64,000 bases of DNA, taken from positions 40,286 through 104,285 of IMG/VR virus record IMGVR_UViG_3300045941_000233; one strand, 5' to 3'. Shown here one piece after another: positions 24,145-42,311 of this stretch. The notes beneath the pieces were generated by a model. That model had not been told where the DNA came from. It ran no database searches and saw only the letters and a list, made by a program, of their open reading frames with translations. Made by a program: the position numbers and the translations under genes. How positions within the stretch are numbered: the first letter of the stretch is position 1; each line of letters opens with the position of its first letter. Origin of the DNA: a virus.

Positions 24145-24159
24145 TTGGACTAATGCGAA

Positions 24160-24729
24160 ATGCCTAACGAAATCAAGCAAAAGGTTGGCACGCAGCTTCG
24201 GTTCTGCGTTAGCGGCTCGTTCTCTCCGGCCGATTCGGCCACTAACTGGACGATTGGCTCGCCGACTAACGTAACACTGACGCAAAGCGGTCTGGCCAAC
24301 GGCGCAGGCCGGCAGTCCGCCAAGTTCGATTTTGGCTCCACCCGGGCAGCAGCCTTCGAATGCCTCGCCGCGGCGGATTTTACCGACGAAACTCCGACGG
24401 CGGGCGGCACTATCGATTATTACTTCGCGCCATCGACCAGCACCACGCAGGCAGACGGCAACGTCGCCGGAAACTCGGGGGCGGACGGCGCCGCGCCGGA
24501 CGGCGCTTTGGGCTCGATCACGCTGGCCGAGTTCCTGAAGCAGTGCATTTTTATTGGGTCGCTTGTGACGCATGACGGGGCCGTCGTGCAGAACGGTTTT
24601 GTTGGAATTCTGCGGCCCACCAGTCGCTACGGACAGTTGATCGTCGTGAACAACAGCGGCGATGCGCTTGAAGCAGACGACGTGGAAAATCATGTAGTCC
24701 TGAACCCAATCGTCGATGAGTTTCAATAA
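24160..24729 (+). CDS. Hypothetical beta-rich virion protein
   Basis: 189 residues, rich in Gly, Ala, Thr and Ser with alternating hydrophobic strands (IGSPTNVTLTQSGLANGAGRQ, split here for brevity). It resembles a tail-tube-like or decoration beta-sandwich. The stop overlaps the next start by 14 bases. Confidence 0.6.
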   Translation: MPNEIKQKVGTQLRFCVSGSFSPADSATNWTIGSPTNVTLTQSGLANGAGRQSAKFDFGSTRAAAFECLAAADFTDETPTAGGTIDYYFAPSTSTTQADGNVAGNSGADGAAPDGALGSITLAEFLKQCIFIGSLVTHDGAVVQNGFVGILRPTSRYGQLIVVNNSGDALEADDVENHVVLNPIVDEFQ

Positions 24730-25555
24730 ACACGGCTGGCTTGACAGTGCTACTCCTGTCAATTGGTTCCACCCCCTCAATCGCGGCCTTGTGGCCGAGT
24801 GGGCGGTAGTACAGCCAGGCTACGGGGGGACTGCTTTTCGTAATCTGGTTACTCGCGGTCTGGTTAAAAACGGCGCCAACAACGCCAATATCACATGGCT
24901 GCGCCGGAATCTGGTTTTCAATGGGACCAATACCAGAGTCAGCCTGGACGACTCGTCTGCGCTCATTGCCTCCGGTGATTTTTCCATCGTCAGCATCTAC
25001 ACTCCCACCGATGCCGTGTCGGGGGGCATGATCTACCGGATGGGCGACAACCCATCGGACAACGACGCCAACTTACAGCAAGGCAATCTATTCAATGGTG
25101 GCACCGCCAGCCGCATTTCTCTCATCCACTACAGCGCTGGGTGGCAGGTCTGCACTGGCGCTACGGATCTTGTGAATGGCCGTCGATACTGGGCGGCTGG
25201 GACTTTCAGCGGAACTAATGGCAGTGTCGTGTACTTGAACGGAGTGGCGGACGGCACAGATGGCAACACTACCCGCGGCGGAGTGCCTTCCACGCATGCC
25301 GCCATTGGGGCTAATGCCGTCACCGACCAGTATTACCTAAACGGATCCATAGAGAGCGTATTACTCTACAACCGGGCGCTCACCGCCGGCGAATGCTTGT
25401 CCTTGTATAAGGAAATGATGCAGGACAATCCCTTCCGATGGAATTGGATCAACAACAGCTTAGTCAGGAATGTAGGCGCGGCATTAAAATCGAGGGGACT
25501 GCTTAGCGGCGGTAATCTGCTAGGCCAGGGGATGCTTTCCGGCGGAAGGCTTTAG
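24716..25555 (+). CDS. LamG-domain (concanavalin-like) protein
   Basis: 279 residues. LNRGLVAEWAV opens the domain and RYWAAGTFSGTNGSVVYLNG, then IESVLLYNRALTAGE are the classic LamG/concanavalin A-like signature. Such domains bind glycans, so this is probably a virion appendage protein contacting the host surface. Followed by a related appendage gene after four bases. Confidence 0.8.
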   Translation: MSFNKHGWLDSATPVNWFHPLNRGLVAEWAVVQPGYGGTAFRNLVTRGLVKNGANNANITWLRRNLVFNGTNTRVSLDDSSALIASGDFSIVSIYTPTDAVSGGMIYRMGDNPSDNDANLQQGNLFNGGTASRISLIHYSAGWQVCTGATDLVNGRRYWAAGTFSGTNGSVVYLNGVADGTDGNTTRGGVPSTHAAIGANAVTDQYYLNGSIESVLLYNRALTAGECLSLYKEMMQDNPFRWNWINNSLVRNVGAALKSRGLLSGGNLLGQGMLSGGRL

Positions 25556-25559
25556 TCCA

Positions 25560-26264
25560 ATGGGATTCAAAGGCATTGACGTTCGAGAAACCGGCGACAG
25601 GATCGTCGTACGCGCGTTTTTGCTGGATTCTTCCGGCGCAAAGGTGACGTCCGGGGAAGCCTCGCTGTATCTCTATGAACTTCAGTCCGACGGGTCTTTG
25701 AAGTCGTTTGATTTTCGCGACCTGACTTTCAAGACCACCAATCTGCACTCGGAAACACTGGCGCTCACCCACCAGACCGGCAACAACGGCCAGACCAATA
25801 CGGGGATCTGGACCGGCGCTTTTGAAGTCGATCGCACGCTCGAATCTTCATCGTCGCAGTGGTCTAGCCAGTCTGGCGATTCATTTTCGTCCGAGTCCAG
25901 CATCAATGAAGAAACGGAATTCACGAAGGGCAATATTTACATCGCGCTCGTAAACCACTCTTCCGCAAGCCCGCCCTGGCAGGGCCGCGAGTTCCAATAT
26001 GGCGAGGCGGAAGGCGACGGACTGGCGGCAATTGCTGACGCGACCCTCTTCCGCAACTGGATTACGGCCGTGGCCGAGCTCGAAGCCGATGGCGACTCCG
26101 TGCCGGCCCGTTCCTTGATTCAGGCGGCCCGCTTCATTCGCAATAAGTTCAGCACGACCGACAATCCTGGCTTTGTGACGGTTTATGAAGAGGACGACGC
26201 GACAGAAGCCTATCAAAAGGCCCTGACTACAGATCCGGCCGCAGAGCCGATTGTCGAAGGCTAA
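25560..26264 (+). CDS. Virion protein with a short Ser-rich insert
   Basis: 234 residues. A beta-rich N-terminal domain (VRETGDRIVVRAFLLDSSGA) is interrupted at about 100-118 by a Ser-rich loop (SSSSQWSSQSGDSFSSESS), then a second domain follows. The N-terminal domain resembles lectin-like or BppU-like baseplate modules. It carries the same Ser-rich style as the larger neighbours. Confidence 0.6.
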   Translation: MGFKGIDVRETGDRIVVRAFLLDSSGAKVTSGEASLYLYELQSDGSLKSFDFRDLTFKTTNLHSETLALTHQTGNNGQTNTGIWTGAFEVDRTLESSSSQWSSQSGDSFSSESSINEETEFTKGNIYIALVNHSSASPPWQGREFQYGEAEGDGLAAIADATLFRNWITAVAELEADGDSVPARSLIQAARFIRNKFSTTDNPGFVTVYEEDDATEAYQKALTTDPAAEPIVEG

Positions 26265-26276
26265 CGGGGGTGTCCG

Positions 26277-26549
26277 TTGGCAGAAATAGTTGCCCAGCGC
26301 GTATCCAAGGACGAAATATACATTCGTGCCGGCGACGGCAAGGACGTCACGATCACGCGCACGCAGATACAGGGTTTTTACGCGGCCCAAACCGGCAACG
26401 CCGCTGCGCGCAAGTCCGCCACCGTCGCCGAGTTCAAGCAGCGCATAGCAACTGCCCTTGGTGTCGCGCAGATCGCGATTGGCAATATCGTCCTGGACTT
26501 CAACCCCAGCGACACCAATGCGACCCTGACGTCAGAGGTCGTTAGCTAA
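26277..26549 (+). CDS. Small hypothetical protein
   Basis: 90 residues with a TTG start (26277) after a G-rich site. It is alpha/beta, with KDVTITRTQIQGFYAAQTGN and AEFKQRIATALG. No recognised family. The next gene follows at once. Confidence 0.55.
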   Translation: MAEIVAQRVSKDEIYIRAGDGKDVTITRTQIQGFYAAQTGNAAARKSATVAEFKQRIATALGVAQIAIGNIVLDFNPSDTNATLTSEVVS

Positions 26550-28868
26550 ATGACGACCATAAACTTTGGCGGACATGAGAGAGGAACGGCGGCGGAAACC
26601 GCCATCACTGGCGGTACGTTTTCTATTCAGTCCACCACGAAGCGCACCGGCACTTACGCCTTGCAATGCAATCCGGCAAGCGGAGTAGCTGGCTACAACG
26701 GCTTTCACAACATCTTGGCGAACGGTGGCGGCACATCTCTGGCCAGGACCGCCGAAACTTTTTACACGACTTACTTTCGATTTGTCAGCATTCCGTCAGG
26801 CACCACTAAGTTTGTGCAGGTCGTATCGAATACGCCGTCCGATGTTGTGGTAGTGCAGATCGACTCATCGGGGAACGTCAAGCTTGTAGGCACCACAACA
26901 TCGGCGACGATTGCCACGGTAACTTCTGGGACATGGTACAGGCTTGACTTGCGAGTGACCAGCAACGGCACCAGCGGCGCAAGTATCGACGGCGGAGCCG
27001 AGCAAACAGTAACAGCCAACAACATCACGCAAGACAGGTTTGTGCAGGGACGGATTAGCACCGAAGCAGTCGCGATGGACGTGATCTTCGACGATTGGCA
27101 TATCGACGACGCCGGGTTTCCTGGCGCGGGCGAATGCCGAATGTGTTCGACCACGGGAGACGGGACATACACGGGATGGGTGACTGGCACTGGCACAACC
27201 GAAGCGGAAGTCGATGACACTCCGAGCGATGCTGACACCACCTATATCGCCGTGCCGGCCACCGGAGACAACACCGCTCGGACGTTCGCGATGGAGGATT
27301 GCACGACGGTTGGCATCGAGGGAACGATCCGGGCCGTCAAATGCATCTGCTCCGTTAGAACCGAATCAACCACTGGCTCATCTACGGTTGGATTGCGGGT
27401 ACGGTCCGGATCGACTGACAGCGATACAACCGGTGTGGAATGGACGACGACCTACGCTAATCATCAAAAGCTGCTAACGACCGACCCTAATGGCGGCGGC
27501 TCGTGGACAAGCAGCGGCGTCGATGGCGTCGAGTGCGGTGTATTTGCCGGGTCTATCGCCCAGATTCAGCGCTGCACGACGGTTTCGCTGATGGTGTGGA
27601 GTAGCGGCGTAGATGAGTCCTCAAGTTCCGATTCCAGCGCTTCGTCGGCGAGCTCCGCGTCCTCAATCAGCAGTCTTTCGTCGCTCTCTTCGCCGTCGTC
27701 TGCCTCTAGCGCAAGCTCGATTTCTTCCCTTAGCAGCCTGTCGTCTCTGTCCAGCCAGTCATCGGCTTCCAGCGCCAGCAGTATTAGCAGTGTCAGTGAT
27801 GCAAGCAGCGGAAGCAGCGCAAGTAGCGCAAGCAGCCTTTCGTCTCCAAGCAGCGGATCGTCGGCAAGTTCCGCTTCGTCTTTTGGTCCCACGGCCGGCT
27901 ATCGATCGTTCACGGCGTTCTGGTTGGGTGGCGCATCGGCGCCAGGAGAGGAAGATTCGTCGTCATCGTCGGTCTCTTCCGCAAGCAGCCAGTCCTCACT
28001 CAGCAGCCAGAGCAGCCTATCGTCGGCGAGCAGCGCGTCGAGCCTGTCGAGCCCTTCCAGCGCGTCATCGCTTTCGTCGCCAAGCTCCGCAAGCTCTCTC
28101 AGCAGTCTTTCGTCGGTGAGCTCGCTGTCGTCGGCGAGCAGCGCATCGTCGGTATCCTCGTTGTCGTCTATTTCCTCACTGTCCCGGCCGTCAAGTTCCA
28201 GCAGCCCGACTTCGGCCAGTTCCGCAAGCAGCCAGTCTAGCGCGTCGTCCGCCTCTTCGCTTAGTTCGGTATCGTCTCAAAGCTCCGGATCGTCGGCGAG
28301 TTCTCTTTCTTCTTCAAGCAGTCTTTCGTCGGCATCATCGGCATCGTCGGCCAGTTCGGCAAGCAGTTTGTCGTCGGTTTCATCTCTTAGCAGCCAGTCA
28401 TCAGCCAGTTCGGCGAGCTCTGCGAGCTCGTCAAGCTCCCTGTCATCCCAAAGCAGCCAGTCGTCGGCATCTTCCGCATCCAGCGCGAGCAGTATTTCTT
28501 CGCTCAGCAGCCAGAGCTCGGCGAGCAGCGCATCGTCTGCGAGCTCATTGTCCAGCAGTTTTTCGTCGGCGAGCAGCGATTCTTCCGTCAGCAGCTTGTC
28601 GTCACTCAGCAGCCAATCGCAGAGTTTTTCTAGCGAGTCATCGTCAACGTCCAGCATGGTCGAGCGGCCGATCTACCCCGGCGACACGGCTTGGTCGCAG
28701 CTTGGCCCTGGCGATGCAGCTTGGAACCAGCGCGGCCCCGGTAGCGCGTCCTGGACCCAGCGAGGGCCGGCCGGCACAGCCTGGACCCAGCGAGGCCCTG
28801 GCGGCGCCGACTTGTCGCCGCGCGGTCCTGGCGGCATTTCGATTCGACCAAAACGCACTAATCCGTGA
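26550..28868 (+). CDS. Ser-rich repeat fibre-like protein
   Basis: 772 residues in three parts. Residues 1-345 form two beta-rich LamG-like domains (STTKRTGTYALQCNP and VIFDDWHIDDAGFPG). Residues about 352-703 are a Ser-rich low-complexity region of SSxSS, SASSxSS and SxSSLSS units with a single non-Ser block, AGYRSFTAFWLGGASAPGEE. Residues 711-770 are six decapeptides of the form GDAAWNQRGP. The encoding DNA uses mixed Ser codons, so the composition itself is under selection. Probably a virion fibre or appendage. Confidence 0.75.
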   Translation: MTTINFGGHERGTAAETAITGGTFSIQSTTKRTGTYALQCNPASGVAGYNGFHNILANGGGTSLARTAETFYTTYFRFVSIPSGTTKFVQVVSNTPSDVVVVQIDSSGNVKLVGTTTSATIATVTSGTWYRLDLRVTSNGTSGASIDGGAEQTVTANNITQDRFVQGRISTEAVAMDVIFDDWHIDDAGFPGAGECRMCSTTGDGTYTGWVTGTGTTEAEVDDTPSDADTTYIAVPATGDNTARTFAMEDCTTVGIEGTIRAVKCICSVRTESTTGSSTVGLRVRSGSTDSDTTGVEWTTTYANHQKLLTTDPNGGGSWTSSGVDGVECGVFAGSIAQIQRCTTVSLMVWSSGVDESSSSDSSASSASSASSISSLSSLSSPSSASSASSISSLSSLSSLSSQSSASSASSISSVSDASSGSSASSASSLSSPSSGSSASSASSFGPTAGYRSFTAFWLGGASAPGEEDSSSSSVSSASSQSSLSSQSSLSSASSASSLSSPSSASSLSSPSSASSLSSLSSVSSLSSASSASSVSSLSSISSLSRPSSSSSPTSASSASSQSSASSASSLSSVSSQSSGSSASSLSSSSSLSSASSASSASSASSLSSVSSLSSQSSASSASSASSSSSLSSQSSQSSASSASSASSISSLSSQSSASSASSASSLSSSFSSASSDSSVSSLSSLSSQSQSFSSESSSTSSMVERPIYPGDTAWSQLGPGDAAWNQRGPGSASWTQRGPAGTAWTQRGPGGADLSPRGPGGISIRPKRTNP
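27605..28650 (+). repeat. Ser-codon repeat block 1
   Basis: Low-complexity coding DNA made of TCN and AGY codons interspersed with GCN, CTN, GTN, ATT and CAG. It is interrupted at about 27890-27950 by the AGYRSFTAFWLGG block. It generates long shadow frames on the other strand. Confidence 0.85.
28680..28859 (+). repeat. Six 30-bp coding repeats
   Basis: Six degenerate 30-bp units encode decapeptides such as GDTAWSQLGP, GDAAWNQRGP and GSASWTQRGP. They form the C-terminal end of the preceding fibre protein. The Trp-Gln-Arg-Gly-Pro pattern is collagen-like in Gly/Pro periodicity but with period 10. Confidence 0.85.
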
Positions 28869-28880
28869 TAATTAACCGCT

Positions 28881-29318
28881 ATGCCGTTCCTTGTTTCAGC
28901 CCGAAACCGCCGCGACCGTGAATGGGACATGACCATTTATGAAGACGACGGCACGACTGAGGTTGTGCTGGCGTCTGACGACGTGGTGCGGCTGAAAATC
29001 GGAACCAACGATGAAGAGCCGCCACTGGACCTATCCAGCCTCGATCCGGACGAAATCACGTTTACCGTCGGCACCGGCGATTGCGTTGTTTATTTGACGG
29101 CCGCCCAGGTTGCCGTCCTTGGCGCCGGCGTCTTCGACTGTGAAGTGAACGTGTACGACGAATCAGAAAACAAGTTCAAGCAGGCAGAATACGGCGCTTT
29201 CACCGTTCACCCGACGCAGCTTGGCGAGACCGGCGGCGAGCAGTCCAGCAGCAGCGGCGGGAGCTCGGAATCAAGTAGTTCTGGGGGTAGCTCTGAATCT
29301 AGTTCGTCGTCGTTCTAG
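28881..29318 (+). CDS. BppU-like domain protein with Ser-rich tail
   Basis: 145 residues. A roughly 110-residue beta domain (SARNRRDREWDMTIYEDDG, LDLSSLDPDEITFTVGTGDC, FTVHPTQLGE) is followed by a C-terminal tail of SSSSGGSSESS units. The domain is homologous to the C-terminal domain of the 1,087-residue protein that follows, and resembles the N-terminal module of siphophage baseplate proteins. Probably part of the same appendage. Confidence 0.7.
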   Translation: MPFLVSARNRRDREWDMTIYEDDGTTEVVLASDDVVRLKIGTNDEEPPLDLSSLDPDEITFTVGTGDCVVYLTAAQVAVLGAGVFDCEVNVYDESENKFKQAEYGAFTVHPTQLGETGGEQSSSSGGSSESSSSGGSSESSSSSF

Positions 29319-29336
29319 CGCCTGCGGGTGCGGCGC

Positions 29337-32300
29337 ATGTATTACTACGGACTTCAACAATACGCCTGGCATGAGCTAGGAAATTCCGGCAAGGGGTATT
29401 GGAAGCTGCCGGCGGGCGTTGTCGGCGCGGTCGATCTGCGGACCATTCCCGCCCAATCTCAACGCGGCGGCACTCCGCAAGGCTTTGCGTTTGTTGCGTC
29501 AAAAGATCCTGTTGACGTGCTGATTTCCAGGGCCGAACACCTTGGAATCGAATTGGCCACAACGGAGATGCGTGACGCTTGGGAAGCCGAACTAGGCTAC
29601 CGCCCCAACGGCAACACGGTTGCCGATCTGCTTTGGGACATGCTTACCGCCGGCGCGGATCCGACCGGCGATTCAGCCTGCAAGCCGCTCATGCCGGCCA
29701 GGGATAACTTTTACGAATTGTTTTTGGGCGTCCACGGGCTTGTGAAGGATGAAGAGTTTTCTGCGGTGAGCGCGGCCGGCCTGAAATCGCTCGACTTGCT
29801 GCGACTCGAATATCGCCAGCACCGCCAGGATTCTTTAGACGGCTTGCATCGGGACACAAGGGGCCGGGTGGCACCACAGCATTACCGCAAGATTCTCGGC
29901 TTTTGGGTGCAAAAGTATGGCCTGGACTATCGGGCGTTTATTCCAAGCGACATGCCCGACGAGCGGCCGCTGCAGCCGGAAACGACCATTGTTGACGACT
30001 TTGATCGCGCCGACCAAAGCGGTCTCGGAACAGCGTCCGGCGGATTTACGTGGTCGAATCCTATCGGTAGCGTCCGCTGGGATATCGTCAGCAATCAGGC
30101 AAAGTACGGCGACGGAAGCGAGACCGGCGAGGATATCGAGCGGGCGGATGCTGACCTGTCGGGTACAGACCATTACGTCCAGATGAAGGTTGTCGAGGTT
30201 TTCGATGGCGGCGGCCCGGGCTTCTACAACTCGGCAGACACGATTTCGCGGAAAGATAACACGTCCACCGCGACGTACTATCTTGGCCAATGCTTCATCG
30301 AAAGCGCAATCAGTTACCACCGTCTATACAAAAATGTAAACGGCTCATTTTCGCAGCTTGGGAGCACTGCGGAGACTATCAATGCCAATGAAATTCAGAG
30401 GGTAGAGTGCGTCGGAACGACAATCCGGCTTTTGATCGATTCGGTGATAGTCCATGAAGTCACCGACTCATCGATTTCGACCGGCACGCGCACCGGCATC
30501 CGAAACGATTCAAGCCACGCCGATAATTACACGATTATCGACGATTTTGAGGCCGGCGACCTGGACGCCGACGAATCGTCTGCGAGCTCGGCATCTTCGG
30601 CTTCGTCGGTTTCGTCGCAATCGTCACTATCCAGCCCGTCTTCGCTATCGTCTGCGAGCTCGGCGTCGTCGGCTTCCAGCCAATCGTCGGTGTCCAGCCT
30701 GTCTTCCCCAAGCAGCGCTTCGTCGCTATCGTCCGCGAGCAGCCTGTCCAGCGCGTCGAGCCCTTCGTCGGCTTCCAGCCAGTCGTCAGCTTCAAGTCCG
30801 TCTTCCGCGAGCAGCCAGTCGAGCCAATCGTCGGCGAGCTCGCCGTCTTCCGTCAGCAGCCTTTCGTCGGCGTCGTCAGCGTCCAGCCAGTCTTCGGTAT
30901 CATCTCTAAGCAGCGCTTCGTCGCCGTCGTCGGCGAGCTCAGTTTCTTCCCAGAGCGCTAACGTCACGGCCGGCTATCGGTCGATGGCGGCCTTTTGGTT
31001 AGGTGGTGCCGCGGCAACCCCGGAGAGCGCGGCCAGTTCACAATCGAGCGCGTCGTCTCTTTCGTCGGCATCGTCCCTGTCGTCGGCATCGTCTTTGTCG
31101 TCGGCCAGCAGCGCCAGCAGCCAATCGAGCCAAAGCAGCCTATCGAGCGAATCGAGCTCTTCAAGCCTGTCCAGCGCCAGCAGCCAATCGTCAGCGAGCA
31201 GTCAGTCGAGCGCCAGCAGCCTTAGCTCCCAGAGCTCGCTTAGTTCGCCGTCGAGCGCATCAAGCCAGTCCAGCCAATCTTCGGCGTCGTCTGAGTCTTC
31301 GGCATCGTCATTGAGCAGCCCAAGCAGCGAATCGTCGGCCAGCAGCGTCAATAGTTCGTCGTCGTCCAGCAGCATCAGCCAGGTCAGCAGTTCATCTAGC
31401 AGCGTCAATAGTTCGTCGTCGTCCAGTAGTCTCAGCAGCCTTTCGTCGGCATCGAGCCAGTCATCCGCGAGCAGCCTTTCGTCGGAAAGCAGCCCGTCGT
31501 CCGCGAGCAGCTTATCATCGGCCAGCAGCGCTTCATCGGCCAGCAGCCAATCTTCCGCAAGCAGTCCGTCATCTGCCAGCAGCGCGTCGTCGGAATCGTC
31601 GGCTTCGTCGTCGTCGTCTCTCAGCAGTCAGAGCTCGGCATCGTCTCAAAGCTCGGCAAGCTCACTGTCCAGCGGTTCGAGCGCGTCCAGCGCGTCGAGC
31701 GCTTCAAGTGCTTCCAGCTTGTCGAGCGCTTCGAGCTCTTCCAGTGCGTCGAGTGCTTCGAGCGCGTCAAGCCTGTCGAGCGGGTCCAGCCAGTCGAGCG
31801 CGTCAAGTGCTTCCAGCCAGTCTTCCGCTTCGTCGCTGTCGTCCGGATCGTCGTCGTCCAGCGCGTCATCGGCCAGCAGTGCCAGCAGCCTTTCATCTCT
31901 CAGCAGTGCCAGCAGCGCATCGTCCGCGAGCTCTTCGAGCAGCGCATCGTCGCTGTCGTCTCAGTCGTCGCTTAGTTCCGCGAGCTCGGCCAGTTCCGCA
32001 AGTTCGGCAAGCTCCCTTAGCTCGGGCAGTAGTTCGTCATCGTCTTTTAGTAGTTCGTCGTCTTCGTCCTTTAGTAGCTCATCGTCTTCGTCTCTCTCTT
32101 CGCTTTCGTCATCGTCGCTTTCGTCATCGTCCAGCAGCCATTCGAGCTCTAGCGTCATTGAGGGCTTGGCAACCGCCCGGATGGGCATTGCCAGCTTTAT
32201 GCTTCACGTCCGCAACCGCCGGGACCGCGAATTTGATCTGATAATTTTCGAAAGCAACCGGCCAGTCGAAATTGTGCTGACGGAAAACGATGTCGTCCGG

Positions 32301-32600
32301 TTCAAGGTTTTCGAAAACGAAAAAACGCCAATCCTGGATCTGTCGAGCCTCGATCCGGGCCAGATTACATTTACCGCCGGGACCGGCGAATGCGTCGTCA
32401 ACCTGACCGCCAGCCAGATAGAAAGCCTCGGCGCCGGCGCATGGGATGCTGAAATCAGCGTTTGGGTGGAGTCCGAAGACAAACTGAAGAACACCGGCAG
32501 CGGCGTTATTTTTGTGCATCCTACGCAAACCGGGCAACATGCGGGCGAAGAGTCCAGCAGTTCCGGCAGCAGCGAGAATTCCTCAGTTTCCTCGTTCTAG
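29337..32600 (+). CDS. Large Ser-rich fibre-like protein
   Basis: About 1,087 residues from ATG 29337 (GTG 29328 adds three). Residues 1-215 are an unrecognised helical domain; about 220-405 a LamG-like domain (TTIVDDFDRADQSGLG to TIIDDFEAGDL). About 410-940 are Ser-rich repeats with an AGYRSMAAFWLGG block near 545. The last 145 residues are a copy of the domain in the preceding gene, again ending in a Ser-rich tail (SSSSGSSENSSVSSF). Probably a virion appendage; the repeats would form an extended, possibly glycosylated stalk (inference). Confidence 0.75.
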   Translation: MYYYGLQQYAWHELGNSGKGYWKLPAGVVGAVDLRTIPAQSQRGGTPQGFAFVASKDPVDVLISRAEHLGIELATTEMRDAWEAELGYRPNGNTVADLLWDMLTAGADPTGDSACKPLMPARDNFYELFLGVHGLVKDEEFSAVSAAGLKSLDLLRLEYRQHRQDSLDGLHRDTRGRVAPQHYRKILGFWVQKYGLDYRAFIPSDMPDERPLQPETTIVDDFDRADQSGLGTASGGFTWSNPIGSVRWDIVSNQAKYGDGSETGEDIERADADLSGTDHYVQMKVVEVFDGGGPGFYNSADTISRKDNTSTATYYLGQCFIESAISYHRLYKNVNGSFSQLGSTAETINANEIQRVECVGTTIRLLIDSVIVHEVTDSSISTGTRTGIRNDSSHADNYTIIDDFEAGDLDADESSASSASSASSVSSQSSLSSPSSLSSASSASSASSQSSVSSLSSPSSASSLSSASSLSSASSPSSASSQSSASSPSSASSQSSQSSASSPSSVSSLSSASSASSQSSVSSLSSASSPSSASSVSSQSANVTAGYRSMAAFWLGGAAATPESAASSQSSASSLSSASSLSSASSLSSASSASSQSSQSSLSSESSSSSLSSASSQSSASSQSSASSLSSQSSLSSPSSASSQSSQSSASSESSASSLSSPSSESSASSVNSSSSSSSISQVSSSSSSVNSSSSSSSLSSLSSASSQSSASSLSSESSPSSASSLSSASSASSASSQSSASSPSSASSASSESSASSSSSLSSQSSASSQSSASSLSSGSSASSASSASSASSLSSASSSSSASSASSASSLSSGSSQSSASSASSQSSASSLSSGSSSSSASSASSASSLSSLSSASSASSASSSSSASSLSSQSSLSSASSASSASSASSLSSGSSSSSSFSSSSSSSFSSSSSSSLSSLSSSSLSSSSSSHSSSSVIEGLATARMGIASFMLHVRNRRDREFDLIIFESNRPVEIVLTENDVVRFKVFENEKTPILDLSSLDPGQITFTAGTGECVVNLTASQIESLGAGAWDAEISVWVESEDKLKNTGSGVIFVHPTQTGQHAGEESSSSGSSENSSVSSF
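30570..32155 (+). repeat. Ser-codon repeat block 2
   Basis: About 1.6 kb of Ser-rich coding low complexity, interrupted near 30967-31020 by the AGYRSMAAFWLGG block. Ser codons TCG, TCT, TCC, AGC and AGT are all used. Where Ala-Ser-Ser occurs, the DNA reads GCGAGCTC or GCCAGTTC, which avoids CAGCTC. Confidence 0.85.
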
Positions 32601-32658
32601 TGTAAAATCCTGACATGCAGGCACGGCACGCCGGGGGCGGCGCACCGGGCAATGTGCC

Positions 32659-33447
32659 ATGATTTGCAAAAAGGCCGAATGCCTCGTTTTTATGAAGCTC
32701 GCGACCTCCCTCTCGCAAGAGGATGAGGCGCTATTCGATCTGATTCACCCGCTGGCTGAGTCGAGTCTCTTGAATTGGATTGGCCAGGAGCTTCAGCACC
32801 AGCAATTCGTCGAATTCCTGCCGATTGGCCAGTCGTTTTCTAATCGGGCGCCGCTACTCCAAACCAATTATGCCGTGGGCGGCGGCACGCAAGACGTCGA
32901 ATGGCGATCGTCATCGACCGCGATCATCACGGCCGGCAATGGGACCGAGTTTTTGCAACTCGAAAATACGCCCGTTTCGCTCACCGGTCTGCAGGTGAAG
33001 GAAAACCCTGGCGGGTATGCCGGACAGGCCGAAGGAAGTTTTGGCGATGATACGGTTTTGGCTTTGGGGGTCGATTACTACCTGGACGTTGACAATCCGG
33101 CCAGCGATATCAGCAAAAGCGGCATTCTGTACCGGAATGGCTCTTGGCCGACGGAGCCGCGGAGCATCAAGGTAAGCTATTTCGGCGGCTACACTGCCCA
33201 GCAACTAAGCGGAAACATGGCCGGGGTCGTGAAGCTGGCGGCGATGCAGTGCATTGCGGCCGCGTTTTGGAAGGCCAAGGTTTTAGCCAAAACTAACGGG
33301 CTTGGACCGTACACGTCCGAGTCGATCGGCAAATACAGCTATGCCATCTCTTCCATGGCTTCCGCCGGCCATCTGACGTTCGACGTTCCGGCCGACGCCC
33401 GCCGGCAATTGTTCAGTTTGAAGAGCCTTGGTCGAATCTTCGGCTAG
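32659..33447 (+). CDS. Head-tail connector, gp6-like
   Basis: 262 residues. A helical N-terminal part (LSQEDEALFDLIHPLAESS), a central beta part (YAVGGGTQDVEWRSSS, then VDYYLDVDNPASDIS), and a helical C-terminal part (GVVKLAAMQCIAAAFWKAK) resemble gp6/gp15-type adaptors that dock below the portal ring. Starts the connector block; ATG 32692 is an alternative start. Confidence 0.65.
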   Translation: MICKKAECLVFMKLATSLSQEDEALFDLIHPLAESSLLNWIGQELQHQQFVEFLPIGQSFSNRAPLLQTNYAVGGGTQDVEWRSSSTAIITAGNGTEFLQLENTPVSLTGLQVKENPGGYAGQAEGSFGDDTVLALGVDYYLDVDNPASDISKSGILYRNGSWPTEPRSIKVSYFGGYTAQQLSGNMAGVVKLAAMQCIAAAFWKAKVLAKTNGLGPYTSESIGKYSYAISSMASAGHLTFDVPADARRQLFSLKSLGRIFG

Positions 33448-33458
33448 GAGGGCCAGCT

Positions 33459-33842
33459 ATGTCAGCCATCGCGGCCGATTGGAGCGACCGGATTCTCGAC
33501 TATTACGACGACGTGAGCCACGTCGGCCCGCTGGCCGGTTGCACGCACAGCGGCGAGCTCACAAACGCTTCATGCGGCGATCGGGTGGCCATGGAGATGA
33601 TTATTTCGGCCGGCCACAAGATCGTTGCGGCGGCCTTTACGGCCCGCGGCTGTTGTCTTAGCCGGGCGGCGGCCGCGATGCTGGCGGAGAAGATCCAGGG
33701 CCTGCCGCTTGGCCTGGCGTCACAGATTCACGATGACGGCATGATCGAGCTCGTTGGCGTCGGAATCTCGCCCGCCCGCCGGGGCTGCGTCCTATTGCCA
33801 TTGCGTGCTTTCAGGCTGGCGATTGCGGAGTACATCGTATGA
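33459..33842 (+). CDS. SufU/IscU-like scaffold homologue
   Basis: 127 residues matching the Fe-S scaffold family over the full length. ILDYYDDVSHVGPL aligns with the family ILDHYKNPRNxG start. SCGD gives C39 and D41, FTARGCCLSRAAAAML gives C65 (and C66), and PARRGCVLLPLRAF gives C110. All three ligand Cys and the Asp of SufU/IscU are present. The known family assembles or transfers Fe-S clusters, or binds zinc as a sulfur acceptor. It lies between the connector and stopper genes, overlapping the latter by four bases. No cysteine desulfurase is seen. Confidence 0.75.
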   Translation: MSAIAADWSDRILDYYDDVSHVGPLAGCTHSGELTNASCGDRVAMEMIISAGHKIVAAAFTARGCCLSRAAAAMLAEKIQGLPLGLASQIHDDGMIELVGVGISPARRGCVLLPLRAFRLAIAEYIV

Positions 33843-34213
33843 GCGTCGAAGCGCTTTGCACTGGCGATAAAGTCGTCAAACAGGAAGCGGCCATCACTAA
33901 AGGCGGCATGGGCGGGCAAGCCCGTTCGTTTTCGGACGTCGGCGCCGCGATCGACTGCCTCGTCCAAGACGTCGGCCGCGGACAGTCTGTCATGTTCGAG
34001 GCCCGCGGACAGCGGCACAGCCACGAAGTTTTCTTTTCGTCGGACGTGCAATTAACCACAAATAACCGCCTAAAACAGACGGTCTCCGGCAATCGAGCGC
34101 TCTCAGTGCCCGTTTATCTGCGCGTGCTGGCGTATTATTCGGAAGGCCGTCCTGGCGAGAATTATTTGTGGATTGCCGCCTGCGAGCAGGAAACGACGCG
34201 GCCGGAAAGTTAG
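33839..34213 (+). CDS. Putative head-closure (stopper) protein
   Basis: 124 residues, beta-barrel-like, with ARGQRHSHEVFFSSDVQL, as in head-tail joining proteins of the SPP1 gp16/HK97 gp7 type. The position between connector and gp10-like gene supports this. The N-terminal half is divergent. Confidence 0.55.
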   Translation: MSVEALCTGDKVVKQEAAITKGGMGGQARSFSDVGAAIDCLVQDVGRGQSVMFEARGQRHSHEVFFSSDVQLTTNNRLKQTVSGNRALSVPVYLRVLAYYSEGRPGENYLWIAACEQETTRPES

Positions 34214-34216
34214 CCA

Positions 34217-34561
34217 ATGTCACCAGTCACAATAGCTTGGTTTGGCGCCAAGATTCTCCAAGAATTCAAAATGGAGATGAAGCGGCGGGCGATGCGCGCG
34301 GCCCGCACTCTGGCTAATCAACTCGCCGACAACATCGACACGCCTGGACCGCAAGCCAGTGCACCGGGCGAGTTTCCGCATGCCCAGACTCGCGAATTGT
34401 TGTATTCGATCAACGTCCATGACGACGGCGAAATGGGCGCCTCAGTGTCGGTTGACGCCGAGCATGCGAGATTTGTCGAGAAATCGCGGCCGTTTTTCGA
34501 TCGCACAATACGAGATTGCGAACGTAGAATCGAAAAAATTCTGTCCGCACCAATGGACTAG
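34217..34561 (+). CDS. HK97 gp10-like neck/tail completion protein
   Basis: 114 residues. PGEFPHAQTRELLYSINVHDD followed by VDAEHARFVEKSRPFFDRTI is the gp10-like pattern (APG, LxxSI, YAxxlEfG...rPF), where the EFG is here KSR. These proteins sit at the neck between head and tail. Confidence 0.75.
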   Translation: MSPVTIAWFGAKILQEFKMEMKRRAMRAARTLANQLADNIDTPGPQASAPGEFPHAQTRELLYSINVHDDGEMGASVSVDAEHARFVEKSRPFFDRTIRDCERRIEKILSAPMD

Positions 34562-34567
34562 CCGACA

Positions 34568-35020
34568 ATGGCAGACGCCCTAGCTACCCTAATTACCGGC
34601 ATTGTGACTAAATGGGACGCCACCGCCACGCTTACAAACGGCATTCCGGGCGGGTTGCATTTTGCTGAGCGCCCGGCCGACGATCAAGCCAACCCGGTCA
34701 TTGGCAGCGATTTCCAGCCTTACGCGATACTTCCCAGCCGCGAGCAGCAGTCTAGGCTTTTGGCAATGTCTTGCGGGTCAGAGCTTTGGGAGCATGAGAT
34801 ACTTTTTAGGGTCTATGGCGCCACCCCGGAGCTCTGTCAGACCTATGCCGGACTGGTCAGAGCCATTTACGATTCAGACTCGCTTGCATTAATCTTGGCA
34901 GAGGGGTCGATGGTCAAACATCGGCCCACCGGCGACGTTCGATACGTCCAGGCAGACAAGAGTGTTTTTTATGTCGATTTGCCGTATGAGTTCGTAACCC
35001 AAAAGGACCGCACGGCATAG
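34568..35020 (+). CDS. Putative tail terminator protein
   Basis: 150 residues. An ATLITGIVTKWDA start, a central FRVYGATPELCQTYAG helix and a final beta strand resemble tail-terminator (gpU-like) proteins. The order gp10-like, terminator, tail tube is the standard one. The family is diverse, so this rests largely on position. Confidence 0.6.
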   Translation: MADALATLITGIVTKWDATATLTNGIPGGLHFAERPADDQANPVIGSDFQPYAILPSREQQSRLLAMSCGSELWEHEILFRVYGATPELCQTYAGLVRAIYDSDSLALILAEGSMVKHRPTGDVRYVQADKSVFYVDLPYEFVTQKDRTA

Positions 35021-35064
35021 ACCGTACACGCCGGGGGCTAAGCGACTGTCTCGGGAGATAACCG

Positions 35065-35442
35065 ATGGCAGCCGTTTCTGGTCAGTACGGAAAAATTACG
35101 ATCGCGACTTCGAACGTCACCGAATGCAGCTATTGGAGCTTCGATCGGACGGCCGCCGAACACGCTTACGCATCATGCGCGACCAACGGCTACAAAAAGC
35201 GCGTGGCCGGCACGAAGGACGGCAGCGGGAACCTGAAGGGATGGCAGGATCCGTCGGCGATGATCGAAACCTATTTCGTGGAAGGCGATTTGCCGACGCT
35301 GCGTTTGTATATTTCGGCGGCCAAGTATTACTCTGTGCCGTGCATGATTACCCGTCTGCACACTGAATGCGATATCGACGACGGCGCCATCATTCCATGG
35401 GAGGCTGATTTCGGCGTCAACGGCGCCTGGTCGATCGTGTAA
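35065..35442 (+). CDS. Major tail tube protein
   Basis: 125 residues, beta-rich (GQYGKITIATSNVTECSYWSF, then AKYYSVPCMITRLHTECDID and WEADFGVNGAWSI). It lies directly upstream of the tail assembly chaperone and tape measure genes, where the tube protein is always found in siphophages. GGGAGATAACC precedes the ATG. Confidence 0.75.
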   Translation: MAAVSGQYGKITIATSNVTECSYWSFDRTAAEHAYASCATNGYKKRVAGTKDGSGNLKGWQDPSAMIETYFVEGDLPTLRLYISAAKYYSVPCMITRLHTECDIDDGAIIPWEADFGVNGAWSIV

Positions 35443-35468
35443 TCTTTTTTAGGAGAATCGGGGGCCAG

Positions 35469-35939
35469 ATGCAGGATATTAGTCGTGTGACCGGCGATGG
35501 AGTCATCGTCGAGTCCAATGTGAAGGGCCGCACATTTGTTTTGAGCGGCATGACGTTTGAGGATCTTGGCGCTGTCCAAAAAAGGTTTCTGAGAGACAAA
35601 CGCGAGCGGCTACTTGAGGCCGCCAAGATTCGCGCAGACCTTGAAGACACTCCGGAAGCCCGCCAGGAAGTGATGGACAAGGCGCAGGCGGCAGCGACCC
35701 AGATAGCCTACCTGTCGGACGAAGAATTCAACAGCATCGTTAAATCGCCGTTCGGGGCCACAGAGCTTTTGTGGGTGCTGTTCCAAAGACAGTTTCCTAA
35801 TCAAGTGACCAGGACAGAAATTATCAGGATGGCAAACGCTGGCGAGTTTCCAGCGGATAGCATGACGCAGCTTATTTCTGAGTTACTTGGCGGGAGTCCA
35901 GGGGGAAACTCGACTGGCCAGAGCAACGATTCCAAGTAA
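35469..35939 (+). CDS. Tail assembly chaperone (gpG-like)
   Basis: 156 residues, helical, with a short N-terminal beta part (VKGRTFVLSGMTFEDLGAVQ). Placed between tail tube and tape measure, as in lambda gpG. Near the end, in frame, GGGAAAC (35903-35909) is a slippery site that allows -1 frameshifting into the next frame. Confidence 0.8.
   Translation: MQDISRVTGDGVIVESNVKGRTFVLSGMTFEDLGAVQKRFLRDKRERLLEAAKIRADLEDTPEARQEVMDKAQAAATQIAYLSDEEFNSIVKSPFGATELLWVLFQRQFPNQVTRTEIIRMANAGEFPADSMTQLISELLGGSPGGNSTGQSNDSK
35903..35909 (+). promoter_or_regulatory. -1 ribosomal frameshift slippery site
   Basis: G GGA AAC fits X XXY YYZ in the reading frame of the upstream gene. After slipping, the -1 frame runs open from 35909 to 36286 with no stop. 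Lambda G-GT uses GGGAAAG at the corresponding position. Confidence 0.8.
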
Positions 35940-36286
35940 GTTTCGATCCGACTAGCCCGGCCGGCTGGCGGTATTTGCTCTGGCTGCTTGTCCGGCCACC
36001 CGAAGCTGGCGGGTTGGGGATGGACCCTATCTCTGCCAAGCGACTTACACTGGGAGAAGCGCACCTATACTTGTCGGGCGAGGACTCGATCAAATCTGCC
36101 TGCCGCAAAATGAATCAGGCATCGCACTTTGGCCGCAAAGCGACACCGGAAGATATACGCGAGGCTCACCGCCGGAGCATGACCGAGCGCCGCAAGTATT
36201 TCACTGGCAGCGAAGATATTGGTCTAACAGAGGCAGAACAAAAAGACGTCGGCAAGGAAGAGCCGCTGGGGGCTTTTTGGGGATAG
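35909..36286 (+). CDS. Tail assembly chaperone GT extension (T frame)
   Basis: 125 codons read by -1 frameshift from the G gene (fusion of about 272 residues). It contains FDPTSPAGWRYLLWLLVRPP, then RLTLGEAHLYLSGED and a KYFTGSEDIGLTEAEQK end. The start at 35975 seen by simple ORF calling is internal. In lambda, the GT fusion chaperones the tape measure protein, whose gene follows five bases later. Confidence 0.75.
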   Translation, partial: LDWPEQRFQVSFDPTSPAGWRYLLWLLVRPPEAGGLGMDPISAKRLTLGEAHLYLSGEDSIKSACRKMNQASHFGRKATPEDIREAHRRSMTERRKYFTGSEDIGLTEAEQKDVGKEEPLGAFWG

Positions 36287-36290
36287 TGTT

Positions 36291-38054
36291 ATGTCGAGAA
36301 TCCTGGCGAATCTGGTTGTTAATATCGGCGCCAACCTGGCACCGCTGAAGAGCATCTTGGGGCAGGCGCAGGGCATGGCCCTTGGCATGCAACTCAGCAA
36401 AGGAATTGATCTTGCGCTCTCCGGAATGCGCGGCCTGTTTGCCGCTGGCATCGGAGTAAACGCCGAATTGGAGCAGATGACGGCCGGATTTGAGGTCATG
36501 CTTGGATCGCAAGAAAAGGCGGTCAAGTTAATGGGCGATATTCGGAAATTCGCCGCGGAGACTCCATTCGAGTCCCCCGCCGTAGCGCAGCTTGCCACGC
36601 AACTTCTGGCAACCAAAAAAATCGCCGAAGATAAAGTCATGCCGGCAATTCGGAAGCTTGGCGATGCGGCCGCTGGCTCCGCGAAAGGATTCGAAGCTCT
36701 GCCGCGGATTGGGCTGGCTATCTCTCAAATGCTCGGAAAGGGAAAGATTACAGCGCAGGACATGAATCAAATCGCCGAAGCCGGCATACCAGCCTGGTCG
36801 GCGCTTGCGGAAGCAACTGGTAAATCGGAAGCGCAGCTTCGCGAAATGTCCGAGTCCGGAAAGCTCGGTATGAATTCGGTTTTGATGCTGATCGATGCAC
36901 TCGGCAAGCGATTTGATGGTATGGCGGTTAAGCAGTCCAGAACTTACAAGGGTCTCTTCAGCACGATCAAAGACAATTTTTCGATGGGACTAGGGCGTGT
37001 TTTCGAGCCCATTTTCAATCGGCTAAAGAAAGTGCTGGAATGGGTTGCCGATTTCACGAAGAGCCCCGACTTCACTGCCTGGACGGATCGGCTTGCCGCC
37101 GGCATGGAATGGTTTGGAAAGATGGCTGAAGCCGGGGTCAAGGGGCTGCTTAGCGGTATTGAGCTCGCGATTAAAGCCGTGACATTTTTCGGCGAGCACT
37201 GGAAGACGATCTGGGATTTTGTTGTTGCGCAGGGCATCGCCAGCGTTTCCTTGCTTTGGGACAGGTTCAAGTATCTCCTGAATGAGCAGGTTCCGTTTGC
37301 GATCGTCGCCATGTGGGAAGGCGCTTTGGCTGGCGGCAGAAAATGGCTGGAACATCTCGGCACCGAAATGAAAGCGTGGATGGATTTCTTTAAGGACTTG
37401 TTTATCGCTGTCTTTGACTCAATTTCTGTGAGATTTCAGGGGCTGATGAAGGCATGGGAACAGGTCAAGGCCGGCAAGCTCGGGAATGCTTTTGAAGAGC
37501 TCGTCAAGGGAAACGCGGCCGGAGATGCAGCGCTGGCCGGCGGAGCGGTGAACGCCGCAAGCAACTTTGCTGCCACGATGGGCGGCATGGCCGTTGATAT
37601 CGGCGCGGCCGTTGCTGACGCTGTTGGTGAGGTTATGTCAGCAATGCCAGGTTTCGAGCCGTCTGACAGAACAAAGGGACTTCAGGGCGTTGCCGACGAA
37701 ATCGGCAAAAGATTAGGCGAAGCATGGAACGCGGCCGGAATGCCGAATTTATTCAAGGCTCCGGAAAAACCAGCCGGCGCCCCTGGTGGCAATGTTGCTG
37801 GTGCAGGCGGTCTTGAGGACACCGGCAAGGGTAAGGTCAAATCCGAATTCCTGGCGCTCGACGAGCTCAACAAAAAGATCCAGTCGTCGATCACCGACAA
37901 GGAGGCCAAGGACCGCAAAAAGGCGATTGCCGCGGCCGAACGCGGCGCCGACGCCGGCGAAAGGGTTGCCGTATCCACCAATCACATTAACGAGTCCATG
38001 CGGACGCTTCCGCAGAGAATCGCCACCGAAGTCAATCTGGGCTACGTGGCCTAA
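36291..38054 (+). CDS. Tape measure protein
   Basis: 587 residues, helical. The N-terminal region has FEVMLGSQEKAVKLMGDIRKFA, TPFESPAVAQLATQLLA and GLAISQMLGKGKITAQDMNQI, all characteristic of tape measure proteins. A Trp-rich mid-region and an Ala/Gly-rich part follow. It sets tail length and is ejected with DNA. At 587 residues the predicted tail is short (roughly 80-90 nm by the usual 0.15 nm per residue). Confidence 0.9.
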   Translation: MSRILANLVVNIGANLAPLKSILGQAQGMALGMQLSKGIDLALSGMRGLFAAGIGVNAELEQMTAGFEVMLGSQEKAVKLMGDIRKFAAETPFESPAVAQLATQLLATKKIAEDKVMPAIRKLGDAAAGSAKGFEALPRIGLAISQMLGKGKITAQDMNQIAEAGIPAWSALAEATGKSEAQLREMSESGKLGMNSVLMLIDALGKRFDGMAVKQSRTYKGLFSTIKDNFSMGLGRVFEPIFNRLKKVLEWVADFTKSPDFTAWTDRLAAGMEWFGKMAEAGVKGLLSGIELAIKAVTFFGEHWKTIWDFVVAQGIASVSLLWDRFKYLLNEQVPFAIVAMWEGALAGGRKWLEHLGTEMKAWMDFFKDLFIAVFDSISVRFQGLMKAWEQVKAGKLGNAFEELVKGNAAGDAALAGGAVNAASNFAATMGGMAVDIGAAVADAVGEVMSAMPGFEPSDRTKGLQGVADEIGKRLGEAWNAAGMPNLFKAPEKPAGAPGGNVAGAGGLEDTGKGKVKSEFLALDELNKKIQSSITDKEAKDRKKAIAAAERGADAGERVAVSTNHINESMRTLPQRIATEVNLGYVA

Positions 38055-38992: not shown

Positions 38993-40017
38993 TGTCGAAG
39001 CCCAGCACCAACAACAAGAGTTTTTTCAAGCTGGTTGCGGCCGGGGACCGCCCCAGCGCGACCGAGCAGAATAAAATCACGTCTGCCCTGTCGTCGCTGA
39101 TGGGGAGCCCCAACGTCCACGACTTGGGCGGCAACAAGGTTCGCATTGTCAGGCTTGGCGAACCGTCCGGCACGTTTTCGACGGCCGACAACCGGCACGA
39201 CGTCACCGCGCAGGTGATGCACTACAACAACGAAGACGTCTCGGACGCTTCCAGTCAGTCGCAAGACATTGGCGCCGGCTTCAAGGTCTCATCGCGCGAC
39301 CCGCTGGATAACTTCTGCGACCCTCACAATCTGATTTTCGACCGCCACGAAATCGCGGTGGCCGTGTATTGCAAGCAGTCCGCCAAGTGGATTCCGGTTA
39401 CTTTCCGGTCTGTTCGGCACGCCATGACATGCCGGGCTTCCGACGGCACATATCCGGCGCGAAGCGTCAACCCGGACACCTACCCGATTCAGTGGATCCG
39501 CTTGCGCTACCATGAAGCCATCGGCCGCCAGCGGCACGACGTCAGTTTCCTCGCGAACAATGTCCTGGATACCAACCTGGCCAATGAATCGAGCCTGTTC
39601 AGCGAGTCGAGCAACCAGCGGCCGCTAGGCCCGGACGCCTACGTCCACAACATCGTGCCAAATGCCTACATCAAGCCCAGCACGATCATTCAGGTTTACA
39701 ACGTCACCGGGCAGTGGTTTACGGAATATCGCGCCGAGCCGGCGCTTGTAGTCCAGCCGGTCCGTAGCATTACCGCCGGCCAGTCGGACGATTGCCGAAT
39801 TTACAGCGGCGGGGTCTATACCAAGAAAGTCGTTCGCTGCACGGCCCTTGCCGCGGCCGTCCAGGCTAATCGCTGGTGCGTTGCCTGGCAGGAAGAGTCG
39901 AGCGGCGTTTATTACGTCGGCCCGTGGGAATGCGCCGACGCCACGCAGAGCGAAAGCAGCATCAGCCGGTCCATCAGCAGCGAGAGCAGTCCATCGTTTG
40001 TGTCTGGCGAAATCTAA
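38992..40017 (+). CDS. Hypothetical tail-region protein with Ser-rich end
   Basis: 341 residues. An N-terminal helical part with SATEQNKITSALSSLMG is followed by a beta-rich body (NVTGQWFTEYRAEPALVVQ) and a short SESSISRSISSESSPS tail. The repeat of ATxxxKI and HDVTAQV resembles tail-tip components. The stop overlaps the next start. Confidence 0.6.
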   Translation: MSKPSTNNKSFFKLVAAGDRPSATEQNKITSALSSLMGSPNVHDLGGNKVRIVRLGEPSGTFSTADNRHDVTAQVMHYNNEDVSDASSQSQDIGAGFKVSSRDPLDNFCDPHNLIFDRHEIAVAVYCKQSAKWIPVTFRSVRHAMTCRASDGTYPARSVNPDTYPIQWIRLRYHEAIGRQRHDVSFLANNVLDTNLANESSLFSESSNQRPLGPDAYVHNIVPNAYIKPSTIIQVYNVTGQWFTEYRAEPALVVQPVRSITAGQSDDCRIYSGGVYTKKVVRCTALAAAVQANRWCVAWQEESSGVYYVGPWECADATQSESSISRSISSESSPSFVSGEI

Positions 40018-40763
40018 TGCGGAAAATTGCTTGTTATCTGCGCTACGCGGCGGCCGTTGTGCTGCTTTGTGCCGTCCTGGCGATCATCGACCCGGCCCAA
40101 ATCACAAACGCCCTTTGGCCGCTGGGCCTAATTCCAAATGCGTGTTGCTGCGATACGGAGGAATTGAGCAGCGGCAGCAGCAGTACGTCGTACCCGGGTT
40201 GCTCTTGCTGCATCGGCGATTACGACGGGCAGTTTGACGTTGAGATTTTCGGTGTCGCGGATCAAATCTGCATCGAGTGCGAGAGCCTTAACGGACTTTA
40301 CACGCTCAGCTTCATGGGCGGTTATCTGGATGGAGTCAACGACGAACAGGTCATTTCCAGCCAGAGCGGCTTCCCTCCCGGCACTTCCTGCGCAAGCCTC
40401 CCATTCACCACTTGCTGCCGTGCTTGGGGTCACTGGTTTCGGTGGGGTTGCGGCGGCTCCCAGCCGATAGCCGATATCCATATCGGTCTCAACATTTACA
40501 AATTCAACACGGACAACAGCAGCAGTAGCAGCGGATCAGTTGGCAGCGATATTGGCGATTGCACTATTCAGGTATTTTTCTCTGTCCCAAGCCGTCCATT
40601 GTTCGGCACTTTCATTTTCAGTAAAAGGCTAAATGCCGACGAAGTTGATTGCGCGCTAATCCACGGCCTGGAACTTTCACTCCAAACAGAGACCGGAACG
40701 GACTGCAACGGATCGGCTGCCCGCGCTGTTGTTTCGGCTGTCGTTAGCTCCCAATCGTCCTAG
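40017..40763 (+). CDS. Secreted Cys-rich protein
   Basis: 248 residues. Residues 1-30 (a basic start, then YAAAVVLLCAVLAII) form a signal anchor. Many Cys follow (NACCCDTEEL, PGCSCCIGDY, FTTCCRAWGHW, GCGGS) with Ser-rich spacers (SSGSSSTS, NSSSSSGS). It may be disulfide-linked and membrane-attached. The last 20 residues repeat Ala/Val/Ser. Function unknown. Confidence 0.65.
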   Translation: MRKIACYLRYAAAVVLLCAVLAIIDPAQITNALWPLGLIPNACCCDTEELSSGSSSTSYPGCSCCIGDYDGQFDVEIFGVADQICIECESLNGLYTLSFMGGYLDGVNDEQVISSQSGFPPGTSCASLPFTTCCRAWGHWFRWGCGGSQPIADIHIGLNIYKFNTDNSSSSSGSVGSDIGDCTIQVFFSVPSRPLFGTFIFSKRLNADEVDCALIHGLELSLQTETGTDCNGSAARAVVSAVVSSQSS

Positions 40764-40773
40764 CCGCGCCCAA

Positions 40774-41253
40774 ATGCTCGAATATCGCAGCGAGCCAGAC
40801 AGCAGCGGCCGGCGGCTAGTCGTCTGCACAACCGCAAACTGCGGATACAGGCGGACGACGACCTGGCCGATTGAGAAGATTCGTCACAGTTGCGGCCACG
40901 AAAGAATTCCGGAACCACTGGAAGACCCGCCGCCGGCAGTCGGACCCGGTACGGAGTTGGTGCAACTTTTGAAGCAGCTTGGGGCGTCGGCCAAAGCGTG
41001 CGCCAGATGTTCTGAAAATGCTGGCCTAATGAATCGATGGGGTCCGGACGGCTGCCGCTCGCGCAGGAATACCATCGCCGACTGGCTGAAGAGGGCCTAC
41101 GGGGAGCAGTCGGTTATCGGAAAAATCAAAAACCGGATGGCCGGCGCCGTCTCGGGAGTAGCCTGGAAAATCGACTGGAACGACCCTTTTTTGTGGTTGG
41201 TCGATGAGGCGATCCGGCGCGCGGAATCCGTCGAGAACGATGGCGGAAATTGA
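40774..41253 (+). CDS. Zn-binding hypothetical protein
   Basis: 159 residues from ATG 40774. CTTANCGYRR and HSCGHERI form one Cys/His cluster; ACARCSENAGLMNRWGPDGCRSRR forms another, the latter matching a short conserved module found in phage genes of unknown role. The next gene follows after 35 bases. Confidence 0.6.
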   Translation: MLEYRSEPDSSGRRLVVCTTANCGYRRTTTWPIEKIRHSCGHERIPEPLEDPPPAVGPGTELVQLLKQLGASAKACARCSENAGLMNRWGPDGCRSRRNTIADWLKRAYGEQSVIGKIKNRMAGAVSGVAWKIDWNDPFLWLVDEAIRRAESVENDGGN

Positions 41254-41288: not shown

Positions 41289-42311
41289 ATGGACGATGAG
41301 AACACGATTTCGCGACTTGAGCCGCGGCCGAACCTGACCCCGGACCAATGGGCGGCCCTGCCGCGGCATGAACGCATTCGCCTTCGGCAATTGAAGTTAG
41401 CCCACCGCCGGGCTGAAGCAATCGCGGCCAGCCAGGACGGCGAGACGCCGGTAGAAGAGCCATCGGCATCGCGCCCACCGCCGGCCGATACGCCATTCCG
41501 AGACTCCCACAACCGGCCGCTGTACCTGGAAAATCTCTATTTCGGCGCTAGTTGCTTTTTGATGCTCTCGGGACCGTCGGCACTGAGTAACGACCTGACA
41601 GAGCTAAGACGGCGCGGCATCTACACAATCGCCGTCAACAATGCGGCCACGATCATTCGCCCGAATTCCTGGATTTTCGTGGACCCGCCGGAGAAGTTTC
41701 ATTCGGCAATCTGGCTGGATCCGGCGGTGACGAAGTTCGTTCACAACCGGTTCCTGGAATATCGACTGCGCGAGAAAATCGGCGACGAATTCCGCAAGCT
41801 GGACCGGCCGGACGGCAAGCCGGCCCACGTTCGGGATATGCCTGGCGTGGTGTCGATTATTCGCAACGCCGACTTTCGGCCCAATCGCTGGCTGAGAGAG
41901 TCGTCGATCAACTGGGGAAACTCCAAACGGTCGGCCCGCCGGAACAATCAACCGCGCGATCTGAATGTGATGCTGGCGGCCCTGAAGCTGGCCTACGTGC
42001 TCGGCTTCCGGGCGGTTTACTTGCTGGGCTGTGATTTCCTGATGACGGACGATCAGCCGTATTCGTTCACCGAAAACAAGCACGCTTCGGCCGTCGGCAG
42101 CAACAACAACAAATATCGCCGCATTACGGAGATGCTTCAGATTCTGAAGCCGTACTTCGAGGGCGCCGGGTTTCACGTTCGCAACTGCAACCCGCGAAGC
42201 GGATTGACGCTTTTCCCGTTCGTCTCTTACACGGAGGCTATCCAGGCCGCCAGCGGCCACGTCCCGCAAGACCCGCTCGACACGATGAATTGGTACAGGA
42301 AAGGAAACTAG
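41289..42311 (+). CDS. DUF115/sialyltransferase-like putative glycosyltransferase
   Basis: 340 residues. The core starts with SCFLMLSGPSALSNDLTEL, then GIYTIAVNNAATII and WIFVDPPEKF, resembling DUF115-type proteins and the CST-I group of sialyltransferases that use a Rossmann-like GPS motif. VYLLGCDFLMTDD and YRRITEMLQILKPYFE follow. This is the first gene of the main sugar cluster. The substrate is unknown. Confidence 0.65.
   Translation: MDDENTISRLEPRPNLTPDQWAALPRHERIRLRQLKLAHRRAEAIAASQDGETPVEEPSASRPPPADTPFRDSHNRPLYLENLYFGASCFLMLSGPSALSNDLTELRRRGIYTIAVNNAATIIRPNSWIFVDPPEKFHSAIWLDPAVTKFVHNRFLEYRLREKIGDEFRKLDRPDGKPAHVRDMPGVVSIIRNADFRPNRWLRESSINWGNSKRSARRNNQPRDLNVMLAALKLAYVLGFRAVYLLGCDFLMTDDQPYSFTENKHASAVGSNNNKYRRITEMLQILKPYFEGAGFHVRNCNPRSGLTLFPFVSYTEAIQAASGHVPQDPLDTMNWYRKGN

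Follow-up and report, generated by a model that had tools for sequence, protein, structure and literature searches.

Zinc-dependent sulfurtransferases of the SufU type have been described in Bacillus subtilis and Mycobacterium tuberculosis. In the B. subtilis protein the zinc ligands are Cys41, Asp43, Cys66 and Cys128 (PMC6006206), and the strictly conserved contacts made by M. tuberculosis SufU with SufS include Tyr9, Cys40, Gly41, Asp42, Gly66, Cys67, Arg128 and Cys131 (PMC10216065). Iron-sulfur scaffold genes have already been reported in viruses, and a survey names nifU and iscA as common phage proteins (PMC8190135). To this we add a short, strongly diverged SufU-type copy that lies among the connector genes of a phage.

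A scan of viral contigs with IscU sequences gave at least 585 matches, although part of these contigs may be mis-binned bacterial DNA. We tallied 81 loci (80 from the scan, plus L119), finding an IscA-like neighbor in 48 and an IscS-like neighbor in only two. Such genes, exemplified by that of Kyanoviridae phage C48C1 and those of many IMG/VR contigs, resemble the gene studied here in being virus-carried iron-sulfur scaffold genes that mostly lack IscS. However, they are of the IscU type and often accompanied by iscA, and the C48C1 copy is near genes for a DnaB helicase and an endolysin rather than connector genes. Several candidates were set aside as probably bacterial. The matches in phage records (Acinetobacter 'phage' MD-2021a, MT835553) fall within isc/suf operons or beside desulfurase genes, Staphylococcus ISU935 has a desulfurase gene just upstream, and the viral contigs L012, L016 and L019 present an isc/suf operon or desulfurase setting.

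The phage NifU-like genes of PHROG 8429 and the viral SufU genes of contigs L015 and L017 are, like our gene, phage-borne and without a desulfurase. In both contigs the SufU gene adjoins PAPS-reductase-like genes. The L015 protein differs from ours in that it is encoded in a replication/nucleotide module, is longer and less diverged, and scores above the SufU cut-off. At L015 4097-6402 two PAPS-reductase-like genes are followed by the SufU gene with a 4-bp overlap, possibly forming a viral sulfur-transfer cassette, and the contig also carries immunity-repressor, DnaB and primase families.

The window that we have analyzed is a stretch of 64,000 nucleotides, corresponding to positions 40286-104285 of a linear virus record of 104,285 bp that represents an uncultivated tailed phage. 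At 33459-33842 on the + strand it contains an open reading frame with an ATG start, encoding 127 amino acids. A good Shine-Dalgarno sequence, TAGGAGGGCCAGCTATG, is evident from the sequence in the ribosome-binding site region 5′ of the gene (33444-33461, + strand). The translated sequence matches the Pfam family NifU_N (PF01592) with E = 5.3e-16 and 59.3 bits, above the curated cut-off of 22, and PHROG 8429, 'NifU-like Fe-S cluster assembly protein', with E = 1.3e-16; a sequence search of IscU/SufU chains in the PDB gave a best E = 2e-9. The original prediction that this is a SufU/IscU-like scaffold homolog is thus confirmed. Its score with the TIGR01994 SufU equivalog model, 56.1 bits, is nevertheless below the cut-off of 92.5, unlike those of cellular short SufU and actinophage SufU, both of which exceed it.

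Does the protein adopt the expected fold? An AlphaFold2 model calculated from a 39-sequence alignment has a pLDDT of 88.9. Foldseek comparison with the PDB returned 58 matches at E ≤ 0.001, the best 50 of which are all SufU, IscU or NifU-like, and the TM scores to solved SufU/IscU structures are ~0.75-0.84 for most top matches. Those for zinc-dependent SufU of B. subtilis and M. tuberculosis (6jzv, 5xt5, 8odq) are 0.76-0.83. Structure prediction therefore agrees with the assignment made from the sequence. We conclude that the open reading frame encodes a true protein of the NifU_N/SufU/IscU fold, with homology far beyond chance.

Alignment with SufU and 38 family members shows that the phage protein keeps N36, C39, G40, D41, G64, C65, R107 and C110. 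The three ligand cysteines and the neighboring aspartate, singled out originally as retained, are therefore found as C39-G40-D41, C65 and C110. In our own alignment the B. subtilis ligands Cys41, Asp43, Cys66 and Cys128 correspond to C39, D41, C65 and C110, so that the Cys/Asp/Cys/Cys set for zinc is complete, and the arginine before the last cysteine is present as R107. The M. tuberculosis contacts with SufS, similarly aligned, are kept as C39, G40, D41, G64, C65, R107 and C110, with the position of Tyr9 occupied by tryptophan. The fold and the three cysteines and aspartate are also shared with IscU and the NifU N-terminal scaffold. However, the LPPVK-H-C motif and the histidine before the last cysteine are missing, the sequence there being SPARRGC. 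The SufU-specific insert before the last cysteine, which zinc-dependent SufU has, is missing too, as it is from cellular short SufU of suf operons.

These short proteins are the nearest cellular relatives. The best, which reach at most 38% identity, belong to Chloroflexi, Dormibacterota, Patescibacteria and haloarchaea. A sufS-like gene accompanies most of them within the locus, and many are also found with sufB and sufC. They share with the phage protein its length class, the C-GD-C-R-C pattern and the lack of an insert of 18-21 residues (e.g., L035, 127 amino acids, 38% identity). The phage gene, in contrast, is a solitary copy surrounded by connector genes. A search for cysteine desulfurase (PF00266) over the 104-kb phage record gave no match, i.e., the pairing with sufS/sufBCD typical of SufU is not seen in the phage.

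The phage protein also differs from cellular short SufU at conserved positions. At 27 alignment columns, taken here as near-invariant, 90% or more of the remaining sequences agree. The phage protein has lost the conserved residue at eight of them (Y8, H15, K17, P19, I67, S73, K109 and A111), as against 0-3 per sequence in the 38 comparators, a contrast that is approximate given that the comparators were chosen partly by similarity to the query. The N-terminal SufU motif DHYKNP has become DYYDDV, and the lysine before the last cysteine is G109. The branch leading to the protein in the tree is 3.08 changes per column, compared with a median of 0.32, and because it is so long the placement of the protein is unsure. 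Given these losses and the length of the branch, altered function, inhibition of a host pathway or early decay of the gene are all possible.

If function has been altered, the SufU fold might now serve as a phage-specific regulator or inhibitor. Such a protein would still dock onto the SufS of the host, or onto some other sulfur donor, diverting or blocking the supply of sulfur or Fe-S clusters to the host. Docking would occur through the active-site residues that have been kept, with downstream contacts lost. The pattern of substitution is consistent with this, since the ligands and Arg107 persist beside the changes in the N-terminal motif and at K109, with greater loss than in any of the 38 comparators and a very long branch. 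Yet nothing direct points to inhibition, a residue of the M. tuberculosis contact set with SufS (Tyr9; PMC10216065) is replaced, and the same pattern could be explained by fast viral evolution alone. We regard this as unlikely, although it is a live rival.

Much of the same evidence, together with the presence of the gene in a single genome, could indicate recently acquired cargo that is decaying or weakly selected, whose only current role would be to keep the following gene translated. However, the reading frame is intact and has a good Shine-Dalgarno sequence, and the structure model is a confident one. Moreover, all five active-site residues have been kept beside eight changed near-invariant sites, which would be unlikely if the gene were neutral. 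Early decay is also a live rival, to which we give slightly less credence than to inhibition.

The phage has genes for portal, protease, major head protein, adaptor, gp10-like protein, tape measure and terminase. Upstream of the NifU-like gene is that of the head-tail adaptor (32659-33447, + strand; PHROG 442, E = 6e-9), which has a homolog at 5773-6537 of L004, the form in which we see the sole related virus found, G001 (100,062 bp). Downstream is the gene of a putative stopper or head-closure protein (33839-34213, + strand), assigned from its position and its counterpart at L004 6537-6908 (31% identity, E = 1e-16). Pfam and PHROG family models gave no match to this protein, and a model of its structure built from two sequences is poor (pLDDT 42.5). 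It is followed by genes for an HK97-gp10/Neck1-like tail completion protein (34217-34561, + strand), matching the HK97-gp10/Neck1 families, and, by family match, the tape measure protein (36291-38054, + strand). The NifU-like gene is thus set among connector genes, and its stop codon overlaps the start of the putative stopper gene in the sequence ATGA (33839-33842, + strand), both as described in the original prediction. An Rfam scan of 32000-36500 found no elements at the gathering threshold.

Is the gene a conserved part of the neck? The order terminase, portal, protease, head protein, adaptor, major tail protein, tape measure is common to the phage and G001. In G001, however, the stopper homolog lies directly 3′ of the adaptor, at the junction TAGTG, with no NifU-like gene between them, and a search of the whole 100,062-bp record with PF01592 gave no match. 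Conservation of the gene between adaptor and stopper in related phages is therefore not observed in the one relative available, and the gene is not a conserved neck part. Comparison of the two sequences indicates that the gene was most likely inserted at the adaptor/stopper junction. Gain in this phage seems likelier than loss in G001, because of the cellular kin and the compact junction, with one relative for comparison. Single-sequence protein scans of viral and genome contigs gave no confirmed relative of the NifU-like protein, and a tape-measure scan gave none either. Scans with the major capsid and terminase proteins returned G001, a near-identical short contig (L115) and one weak terminase match, and nothing more. 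Since L115 stops before the NifU-like gene, the position of the gene rests on one assembly, and it is carried by one contig only.

Two further differences from G001 were seen along the genome. In G001 the adaptor adjoins a head gene, but in our phage the corresponding genes (head gene 17287-17952; adaptor from 32659) are separated by a region of ~14.7 kb, at 17950-32600 of the window, that G001 lacks. Two Ser-rich repeat proteins of very large size are encoded in this region (26550-28868 and 29328-32600). A RimI-like GNAT acetyltransferase at 6436-6963 is 64% identical to a G001 gene located at another place and on the other strand, a similarity far above that of the structural genes.

The location of the gene between adaptor and stopper, with the ATGA overlap, led to the proposal that an Fe-S or zinc site is built into the neck of the virion, or that the fold has been recruited as a structural or assembly protein. 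The fold and its metal site would then serve the neck as a part, plug or chaperone. There is some precedent, in that Fe-S clusters are known in the virions of other siphophages, i.e., in lambda gpL and the RcGTA tail tip (PMC10721106) and in the hub of roseophage R4C (PMC10276861), but these are in the tail tip and not the neck. The results from G001 show that position inside the structural operon is insufficient to infer a role in the virion, since the same adaptor-stopper order is found there without the gene. Furthermore, Foldseek comparison with viral protein models gave zero matches at E ≤ 0.001, and thus no tie to a known virion protein; the kin are SufU proteins of suf operons, possible Fe-S clients are encoded elsewhere in the phage, and a purely structural role would not need the catalytic residues that have been kept. 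Neither form of the proposal is supported, and while the fold, ligands and overlap of the original prediction stand, the neck role drawn from position lacks support. We consider recruitment as a virion or assembly protein improbable. Still more doubtful is the broader idea of a SufU-like metalloprotein of the late connector operon that loads Fe-S clusters or zinc onto, or itself becomes, a virion or assembly component. A virion role is the least favored of the readings.

On balance we favor the view that this is a diverged SufU-type cargo gene of suf-operon origin, inserted at the junction and most likely working inside infected cells, together with the SufS of the host. A short cellular gene would have entered the adaptor/stopper junction of the late operon and been kept as an auxiliary, its product expressed late and working outside the virion. 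Zinc or a transient Fe-S cluster would be held at C39/D41/C65/C110, and C39 would take persulfide sulfur from a SufS-type desulfurase of the host. This could support Fe-S loading or sulfur transfer late in infection, with two radical SAM proteins of the phage as examples of recipients. The view has a precedent in viral IscU genes, which are common and usually lack a desulfurase. Against it, a late structural operon is an odd site for a metabolic gene, and the residue losses, long branch, sub-cut-off SufU score and restriction to a single contig all count as well.

Possible clients are present in the phage. Two radical SAM proteins with CxxxCxxC motifs are encoded on the + strand at 49464-50588 (C41, C45, C48) and 58176-59120 (C32, C36, C39); none was found in G001. 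A PAPS-reductase-like protein is encoded at 34942-35739 of the phage record (G000), and G001 has one too. We infer that these three proteins are candidate partners of the NifU-like protein. Should it act on host SufS or the radical SAM proteins, the phage would offer a tractable case of a virus steering sulfur supply late in infection.

The two radical SAM proteins occur within a region downstream of the tail genes (41289-62100) that contains a glycan-type gene set, comprising a sialyltransferase-like protein (41289-42311) and family matches to cytidylyltransferase, glycosyltransferase, methyltransferase and 2OG-oxygenase. The protein encoded at 39876-40763 is rich in cysteine and has a hydrophobic stretch at its N-terminus. 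It is followed by a protein containing CxxC-type motifs (40729-41253), to which G001 has a relative.
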